From Phycisphaerae bacterium (GTDB lineage: Bacteria; Planctomycetota; Phycisphaerae; SM23-33): a stretch of DNA of 36,163 nt. The notes under the pieces were generated by a model. That model was given only the letters and a program-made list of their open reading frames with translations. It was not told the origin of the DNA and made no database searches. A program made the position numbers and the translations under genes. Shown in pieces: positions 1-19,176 of this stretch; within the stretch, counting starts at the first letter, position 1; every line of letters starts with the position of its first letter. The stretch covers positions 1-36,163 of the forward strand of contig JAFGEJ010000121.1 of the NCBI GenBank assembly GCA_016931655.1, written 5' to 3'.

Positions 1-21
1 GCGCCCGGAAGGCAGGACTCG

Positions 22-1269
22 ATGGCGAAACGACGTGTCGTGATTACCGGCTTGGGGACGGTCAACCCCTTGGCGCATACCGTGCCGGACTTCTGGTCCG
101 CCCTGCTGGCGGGGCGAAGTGGAATTGCCCCGATCACGCTGTTTCCCGCCGCCGACTTCGACAGCCGGATCGGCGGGGAAGTCAAAAACTGGGACGGCCC
201 GCCGCCGGACATGGTGGACGTCCGCGAGAGCAAGCGGATGGACCGCTACGCCCAGTTCGCCGTGACCTCCGCCGTTGAGGCCGTGCGCGACAGCGGGATC
301 CACTTTGACAAGGAAGACCGCACCCGCTGCGGCGTGATCGTCGGCAGCGGTATCGGCGGCCTGCTGACCCTGGAGCAGCAGCACGAGCGCCTGATGGAAA
401 AAGGCCCGAGCAAGGTCAGCCCCTTCACCGTTCCCCGCCTCATGATCAACGCCGCCGGCGGACACATCGCCATCCAGTACAAACTGGAAGGTCCGAATTT
501 TGCCATCGTCACGGCCTGTGCCTCGGCGGCCCATTCCATCGGCGAGGCCGTCCGGATCATCCAGCGCGGCGAAGCCGACGTGATGATTACCGGCGGCACG
601 GAGGCGGCCTTAACGAAGATCGGCCTGGCGAGCTTCTGCGCCCTGCGGGGCCTTTCCACGCGAAACGACGATCCCGAGCACGCCTCGCGCCCCTGGGACG
701 AGGGCCGGGACGGATTCATCCTGGCCGAGGGCGCCGGCTGCGTTGTGATCGAAACCTACGAACACGCCCAGGCTCGCGGGGCACGCATTTACGCCGAGAT
801 GATCGGCTATGGCCTGAGCTGCGACGCCAGCCACATCACCGCCCCCGATCCGGAAGGCGAAGGCGCCGCCCGGGCCATGCGCCTGGCGCTGGCCGACGGC
901 GGCGTGAACCCGCGGGACGTGGGGTACATCAACGCCCACGGAACCAGCACCCAACTGGGCGACGCCGCGGAAACCATCGCGATCAAAAAAGTCTTCGGCG
1001 ATTACGCCAACCACGGCCTGCTGGTCTCCTCCACCAAGAGCATGACCGGCCACCTGCTGGGCGCCTCCGGCGGCGTGGAACTCGTCGCCTGTGCCAGGGC
1101 GATGGAAACCGGCGTGCTTCCGCCGACCATGAATCTCGAAACGCCCGGCGAGGGCATGGACCTGGATTTCATTCCCGATACGCCCCGCGAGAAGAAGGTG
1201 GACGTGATGCTCTCCAACAGCTTCGGCTTCGGCGGACACAACGGATGTATACTCATCAAGCGGGTATAA
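22..1269 (+). CDS. fabF: 3-oxoacyl-[acyl-carrier-protein] synthase II
   Basis: 415 aa ORF, MAKRRVVITGLGTVNPLAHTV..., active-site region TACASAAHSIGEA, NAHGTSTQLGDAAE, KSMTGHLLGASGGVE, SNSFGFGGHNGCILIKRV; classic KAS II motifs. Confidence 0.97.
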   Translation: MAKRRVVITGLGTVNPLAHTVPDFWSALLAGRSGIAPITLFPAADFDSRIGGEVKNWDGPPPDMVDVRESKRMDRYAQFAVTSAVEAVRDSGIHFDKEDRTRCGVIVGSGIGGLLTLEQQHERLMEKGPSKVSPFTVPRLMINAAGGHIAIQYKLEGPNFAIVTACASAAHSIGEAVRIIQRGEADVMITGGTEAALTKIGLASFCALRGLSTRNDDPEHASRPWDEGRDGFILAEGAGCVVIETYEHAQARGARIYAEMIGYGLSCDASHITAPDPEGEGAARAMRLALADGGVNPRDVGYINAHGTSTQLGDAAETIAIKKVFGDYANHGLLVSSTKSMTGHLLGASGGVELVACARAMETGVLPPTMNLETPGEGMDLDFIPDTPREKKVDVMLSNSFGFGGHNGCILIKRV

Positions 1270-1291: not shown

Positions 1292-1466
1292 GTGGCACCT
1301 TCAAGCGAGTTTTTTATAAAAGATATCGCTTGTGGGTGCTTTTTTTCTTCCTGCTGCCTACTCTGCTTCGCCCTGCGTAGCGGCTACGCAGAGCAGGGTT
1401 GCCTGTTCCCTGCTGCCTTTTCTGGAAAGCACCCACAATCGTCGAAGCGACGATTGAAGGCGCCAC
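1292..1466. repeat. Cloverleaf-like inverted-repeat element, copy 1 (terminal IR GTGGCACCTTCAA / TTGAAGGCGCCAC with three internal hairpins)
   Basis: Ends complementary with one A/G difference; internal hairpins CAAGCGA..TCGCTTG, TTGTGGGTGC..GCACCCACAA, AATCGTCG-AAG-CGACGATT; second copy with the same architecture at 19049-19176. Confidence 0.85.
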
Positions 1467-1480
1467 AACCTTGAAAAATT

Positions 1481-1513
1481 GCCTGGTGGAGCACCCGCTC
1501 CACCAGGCTTTTT
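1481..1513 (+). terminator. Perfect 12-bp hairpin GCCTGGTGGAGC-ACCC-GCTCCACCAGGC followed by TTTTT; also a member of the 26-nt REP hairpin family
   Basis: Direct reading of stem-loop and T-run; related hairpins at 8835, 8875 and 34105. Confidence 0.6.
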
Positions 1514-1528
1514 CCAATCGAGTTTTTT

Positions 1529-1685
1529 GATAGTAGCCACGGGCGCAAGCCCGTGGGAATCGAAAGACAATTTTTCAAAAGCCCCGGAGGGGCGATTGAA
1601 CTTTTATACGTTTCAGTCGTCCCTCCGGGACTCCGAAGAAATCTATCACCGCGTAGTCCACGGGCTTGCGCCCGTGGCTACTATC
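1529..1685. repeat. REPIN/MITE-like element with perfect 28-bp terminal inverted repeats GATAGTAGCCACGGGCGCAAGCCCGTGG
   Basis: 1529-1556 is the exact reverse complement of 1658-1685; each end is itself a hairpin with GCAA loop. Confidence 0.85.
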
Positions 1686-1702
1686 AGAAGTCTGATACAC
1701 AT

Positions 1703-19048: not shown

Positions 19049-19176
19049 GTGGCACCTTCAAGCGAGTTTTTTTGAAAAAACGAGCTTGTGGGTGTCTCTT
19101 TATGTAAAACAAAAGCACCCACAAGCGTTGTTTCGATCTTTATTAAAAAGACCGAAACAACGCTTGAAGGTGCCAC
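19049..19176. repeat. Cloverleaf-like inverted-repeat element, copy 2 (perfect terminal IR GTGGCACCTTCAAGC / GCTTGAAGGTGCCAC)
   Basis: Begins 6 nt after the rny stop codon; three internal hairpins matching copy 1 at 1292-1466. Confidence 0.9.

Follow-up and report, generated by a model that had tools for sequence, protein, structure and literature searches.

REPs are defined by a GTAG or GTGG tag and a stem that is optionally broken by a small bulge (PMC6006769, PMC3733652, PMC3686654). A doublet of inverted REPs is called a REPIN, and in Pseudomonas fluorescens compensatory changes have also been found within the doublet (PMC3116915). The GTAG-tagged REP superfamily has families in Planctomycetes and Verrucomicrobia (PMC3733652). 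TnpAREP binds folded single-stranded REP hairpins, touching their loops or stem irregularities, and recognition and cleavage in vitro have been described for the Escherichia coli, Stenotrophomonas, and Marinomonas enzymes (PMC8266576). By analogy, the units described here would be cleaved by a RAYT.

The window, which is the whole stretch of 36,163 nucleotides analyzed from a Phycisphaerae bacterium, contains two copies of an element that can be compared with these systems (Table 1). The element is read here as a REPIN, with a probability of about 0.8. In this reading, it is an inverted pair of REP-type units, in each of which a hairpin stands between the feet GTGGCACCTTCAA and TTGTGGGTGC and would be recognized by a RAYT as a single strand, and the family would have spread in this manner. 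Membership in the REP/REPIN class is well supported by the architecture and by the linkage to RAYT genes in relatives. The element is a dispersed repeat that was probably once mobile.

The similarities to the REPINs and BIMEs of Pseudomonas fluorescens and E. coli, with their cognate RAYTs, include a GTRG tetranucleotide, an imperfect palindrome, spaced inverted doublets, dispersed copies, and a RAYT gene flanked by units, here in related genomes. The GTAG or GTGG tag and loops of few formats are shared with the GTAG-tagged superfamily. A single-strand hairpin with a two-base stem mismatch next to the tag is shared with the E. coli TnpAREP and its REP (PDB 4er8), and the RAYTs of the relatives carry the same HuH and Y motifs. 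Unlike in REPINs and BIMEs, the foot and the arm-2 stem are conserved, whereas the REP hairpins vary completely in sequence and length, and the whole element folds as a three-arm cloverleaf. It differs from the E. coli system in its GTGG tag, its hairpin, and its distant protein (E 1.6e-8). The combination of conserved feet with free, shape-constrained arms appears to be new within REP/REPIN. GTGGCACCTTCAA was absent from the relevant papers of the literature searched, and no description of the GNA/GNNA loop rule or of stacked GNA/GNA arms was found in that literature, whose coverage was incomplete.

Table 1. Positions of the two element copies and their parts in the window.
Feature	Position	Strand	Remarks
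Copy 1, complete cloverleaf REPIN-like element	1292..1466	.	Between the 3' ends of a FabF-like beta-ketoacyl synthase gene and argG
Copy 1, left REP-like unit	1292..1339	+	GTGGCACCTTCAA-hairpin-TTGTGGGTGC
Copy 1, arm 1	1302..1332	+	Variable hairpin CAAGCGAGTTTTTTATAAAAGATATCGCTTG
Copy 1, arm 2	1330..1438	.	Conserved stem 1330-1339/1429-1438, loop 1340-1428
Copy 1, extra repeated hairpin	1370-1394		Inserted in the arm-2 loop
Copy 1, right REP-like unit	1429..1466	-	Inverted
Copy 1, arm 3	1436..1456	+	Variable hairpin CAATCGTCGAAGCGACGATTG
Copy 1, closing stem	1292-1304/1454-1466		Right side with one A-to-G-type change
Copy 2, complete element	19049..19176	.	Begins 5 bp past the RNase Y stop codon
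Copy 2, left REP-like unit	19049..19095	+
Copy 2, right REP-like unit	19115..19176	-	Inverted
Copy 2, closing stem	19049-19061/19164-19176
Copy 2, arm 1	19059-19088		Tandem 5'-CGAG-3' G.A mismatches
Copy 2, arm 2 stem	19086-19095/19115-19124
Copy 2, arm 3	19122-19166

The sequence-only reading had described a closing stem and three arms in both copies, and all of these stems were located. As single-stranded DNA, both copies fold into the cloverleaf far beyond chance (z = -7.08 for copy 1 and z = -11.77 for copy 2), with 0 of 200 dinucleotide shuffles as good in each case. The extra hairpin that had been noted in arm 2 of copy 1 was also found, inside the loop. This hairpin recurs in the sister species, where it is 95% identical over 43 nt (G001:C39), and at three further loci (L020, L027, and L033). 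The spacer of copy 1 is long because the extra hairpin is carried there. That structure is the conserved thing holds in part. It applies to arms 1 and 3, in which the sequence is free, and it fails for the closing stem and the arm-2 stem, which are conserved in sequence.

Further copies were searched for in the draft assemblies of the window's own genome (G000, 90% complete) and of a sister species (G001, 92% complete). Nearly all of the genomes that were compared are drafts. With the half-unit pattern GGCACCTTCAA-N(8..38)-TTGTGGGTGC, 24 + 20 exact half-units were found in the own genome versus 0 with the reversed pattern, and 36+34 = 70 exact units were found in the sister species. A 16-base probe from the left end, with up to 3 mismatches, matched the own assembly at 87 places versus 38 in the reversed control. 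A total of 29 complete elements, each an inverted doublet, were recovered from the own-genome loci examined. Thus, the element proved to be one of many. The aligned elements share the plan GTGGCACCTTCAA - arm 1 - TTGTGGGTGC - spacer - GCACCCACAA - arm 3 - TTGAAGGTGCCAC, and the spacer is often 19-20 nt long. Because the right half corresponds to the left half in inverted orientation, the element consists of a single type of unit, present twice in opposite directions, and it is this pair that folds into the cloverleaf.

By crude gene calls, 17 of the 29 elements lie in no predicted ORF, and 6 of the 12 overlaps are with ORFs of less than 100 aa. Target-site duplication is lacking in 47 of 55 elements, and the longest match is 3 nt. 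The base pair just outside the element varies by genus. C..G or TC..GA is favored in the window's genus, and GG..CC is found in family f17 and genus g9. Imperfect direct repeats of 25-35 bp, a few bases away, flank three elements (L004 1501, L034 1523, and L019 1501), and at L034 the repeated piece corresponds to the beginning of the gene that lies downstream. Another repeat, (G)TGTGGCTGGAAAATCGTGG, lies beside or contains five elements (L006, L011, L024, L031, and L038). At L006 and L011, it has an inverted copy on the other side.

The simplest unit is found in related genomes of family f17 and reads GTGGCACCTTCAAGC-GNA-GCTTGTGGGTGC. Read directly, the hairpin of this minimal unit is GCACC-TT-CAAGC-loop-GCTTG-TG-GGTGC, with a TT/TG mismatch within the stem. 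The GTGG tag is at the 5' end of every unit, next to the palindrome. The units are patchy in the class, occurring in 13 of 397 genomes. None were found outside the class among 392 genomes of the phylum with a slightly longer pattern. Among the matches listed, single units are present in a Smithella and a KSB1 bin, which may represent transfer or mis-binning. Matches in Aquificaceae, Comamonadaceae, Rhodococcus, and Saprospiraceae were treated as chance because they lack GTGG and their middle is a poor palindrome. A virus-borne element was rejected, as the unit is on just one IMG/VR contig.

RAYT genes are connected to the units in several relatives. In two f17 genomes, G256 and G301, a pair of inverted units encloses an ORF that is about 200 aa long, and a class-wide protein search with a flank scan found the same layout in G120 and in G168, which belongs to the window's own family. 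In all four genomes, the upstream unit is in + orientation and the downstream unit in - orientation. The proteins of G301, G120, and G168, which are the three that were scanned, are above the NCBIfam cut-off for NF047646, 'REP-associated tyrosine transposase', and the RAYT of G256 is 96% identical to that of G301. HuH (EHVH, EHLH) and Y (YIHxNPV) motifs were recognized by eye. For the G168 protein, there is a match to the solved structure of the E. coli TnpAREP (4er8), with E 1.6e-8. Related RAYTs of G157, G126, and G207, which cluster with the G168 RAYT in the tree, have flanking repeats that are related but altered (GTGGCACGGTCAAGC.., GTGCCACCCTCAAGC..). Such correspondingly altered repeats are as expected of cognate RAYT/REP pairs. 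A small hairpin-cutting enzyme, the RAYT, appears to serve the repeat in related planctomycetes.

The feet are nearly invariant, and arms 1 and 3 change wholly between copies yet still pair. The 69 units of the own genome carry 49 distinct arms, and the 66 of the sister carry 29. Covariation among more copies, which the sequence-only reading had proposed to look for, is seen in both of the arm sets that were scored. Arms of 20 nt have two-sided changes in 4 of 8 pairs, and 98.9% of cells pair. Their covariation score is 0.400 versus 0.096 in shuffles, and that of the 21-nt arms is 0.173 versus 0.052, with 0 of 500 shuffles as high in either set; these shuffles ignore the relatedness of the copies. 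Slid-register controls are far lower too, except for the 21-nt set at register +3 (0.144).

Four insertion sites are filled in both the own and the sister genome (L002/L058, L033/L095, L034/L091, and L043/L074). Both flanks are orthologous, except at L043, where this applies to the left flank alone, and the flanks are about 72-88% identical. The feet match at 175 of 184 positions (95%), and arm identity is 31-87%, with unequal lengths in 5 of 8 cases. So the insertions are probably old, with feet that were maintained and arms that were renewed. A less likely alternative is that insertion occurred more than once at one and the same site. In the left unit of L043 (GTGGCACCCACAAGCG..CGCTTGTGGGTG), the TT/TG mismatch became perfect pairing, and tandem duplications are present in L011 and L017. 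These changes look like fold-back or slippage copying. Copy 2 sits at a rearrangement junction: in the sister genome, its left flank adjoins L069 and its right flank adjoins L066. At least one junction of a rearrangement between the sister species is marked by elements. At the site of copy 1, the sister genome has kept argG, the fabF side is not adjacent, and there is no clean filled/empty comparison. No clean insertion polymorphism of that kind was demonstrated, which counts against the REPIN reading.

In genus g9, 69 of 80 arms, with 47 distinct sequences in all, fit a GNA grammar. They can be parsed as a stem, a GNA/GNA mismatch, two base pairs, and onward to a terminal GNA triloop. The G and A of every triplet are invariant in 17 distinct 23-nt and 20 distinct 33-nt arms, up to four different bases are seen at N, and changes in the two-base-pair steps are partly coordinated. 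This variation is almost digital, with G and A fixed and N free. The loops of the minimal units in f17 and related contigs are GNA or GNNA in 33 of 34. In DNA, a GNA or GNNA loop that is closed by a G-C pair makes an extraordinarily stable hairpin, and d(GCGAAGC) melts near 78 C (PMC4686876). A sheared G.A pair is found within such DNA loops (PMC6479982). Many left arms in the window's own genus contain tandem GA mismatches in a CGAG context. This context would favor sheared pairs in DNA. Sheared G.A pairs form in RNA too, so selection of the arms at the DNA level is just the more likely reading.

The element probably works as follows. The unit would fold into a hairpin when the DNA is single-stranded, for example on the lagging strand. 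A RAYT, as an HuH/tyrosine single-strand transposase, would recognize the unit by its GTGG tag, its conserved foot, and the shape of its arm. It would nick and rejoin single strands and so move the units, and the family would have spread this way. The general lack of target-site duplication fits such a single-strand mechanism. The arms would be recognized by shape, not by sequence, and could be renewed in place via fold-back copying or exchange between copies. Tentatively, the hairpin read by the transposase would be free in sequence and fixed in single-stranded DNA geometry. Selection would favor arms in which sheared G.A motifs stack, as GNA triloops, GNA/GNA mismatches, and tandem GA mismatches, the arms would be remade in place by fold-back copying, and only the feet would be sequence-specific. 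This extension is considered rather doubtful. REP hairpins are normally recognized and classified by their conserved sequence, and here the hairpin has been varied repeatedly with the feet held still. The set of arms is ready-made data for asking whether such a transposase, acting on single strands, is guided by sequence or by shape. If true, the arms would be natural evidence of genomic selection on non-Watson-Crick DNA motifs, which are known mainly in vitro.

A further point against the REPIN reading is that a close cognate RAYT was not found in the own or sister genome, both element-rich drafts, or in G009. The best match in the own genome, on C253, is 43% identical. It is of the same broad family, but it was rejected as the cognate, having other flanking palindromes and a place outside the cognate clade in the tree. 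A RAYT about 300 bp from an element on G000:C74 was first taken as the cognate and was rejected because it is beside its own GTAG repeat and just distantly related. So in the window's genus the elements may be orphaned, or the cognate RAYT may have been lost or be unassembled, and current mobility there is therefore uncertain. Residual REPs after RAYT loss are a state proposed in the REP literature. It is quite possible, if somewhat less than an even chance, that the elements are fossils of this type, orphan REPINs in a genus with no active RAYT, whose palindromes are kept passively by fold-back template switching and inter-copy exchange during replication. The missing RAYT in both genomes and the old insertions common to the sister species are in line with this, and the change to pairing in L043 and the duplications in L011 and L017 are of the kind expected from replication errors at palindromes. 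However, in fossils free of selection the feet should decay as well, and the feet at shared sites are far better kept than their flanks. In addition, the absence of the RAYT is read from drafts that are just 90-92% complete. The conservation of the feet where no RAYT is seen hints that something else may also maintain them.

The REPIN reading was also weighed against the other options that had been listed for the element, a MITE, a terminator, or an RNA. REPIN-like was the option that stood, with dispersed inverted REP-like doublets, the GTGG tag, and units that flank RAYT genes in relatives. A structured RNA or terminator used by the host, in which the cloverleaf is transcribed and selected for 3'-end formation or mRNA stability, is unlikely. 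Many copies are directly downstream of genes, as is copy 2 after the RNase Y gene, and arm covariation suits RNA as well as DNA. Against this, 3 of 15 classified copies are between divergent genes (crude gene calls), the distribution in the class is patchy, the units flank RAYT genes, and the f17 loops are nearly all of a motif known for its stability in DNA. No match to a tRNA, a tmRNA, or a known structured RNA was found with Rfam and ARAGORN. A terminator or RNA role may be a side effect of the REPIN-like element. It is very improbable that the element is a MITE of a double-strand (DDE-type) transposon, even with perfect terminal inverted repeats, GTGGCACC, and a small size. This option is disfavored because there is no target-site duplication, and single units also exist, and the genes that units flank encode RAYTs rather than a DDE transposase.

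Other repeats and hairpins were also noticed. A second, different REPIN adjoins copy 1 (window 1523-1689) and reads GTAG-CCACGGGC-GCAA-GCCCGTGG plus its inverse. About 40 copies resembling it are in the sister genome. A strong G+C hairpin follows the element at window 1476-1513, where it is succeeded by a T run, and another is in the right flank of L020. It is a terminator-like neighbor. At 500-1320 and 1800-1930 of L052 (G000:C253), the RAYT is followed by long palindromes, GGGTGCCGTGGTTCGCG..AGCGCAGCGGAGCAACCACG, which again have GNA-spaced pentamers.

IS200/RAYT-like HuH transposase domains were also found within aminoacyl-tRNA synthetases. In the own genome, such a domain is in frame inside leucyl-tRNA synthetase, before the editing domain (L049, G000:C242, 1-2898 minus). 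In the sister species, one is in frame inside valyl-tRNA synthetase (L176, G001:C90, 481-3186), and a region of the own genome matches this insertion (L051, G000:C245). The reading frame is open in both synthetases.
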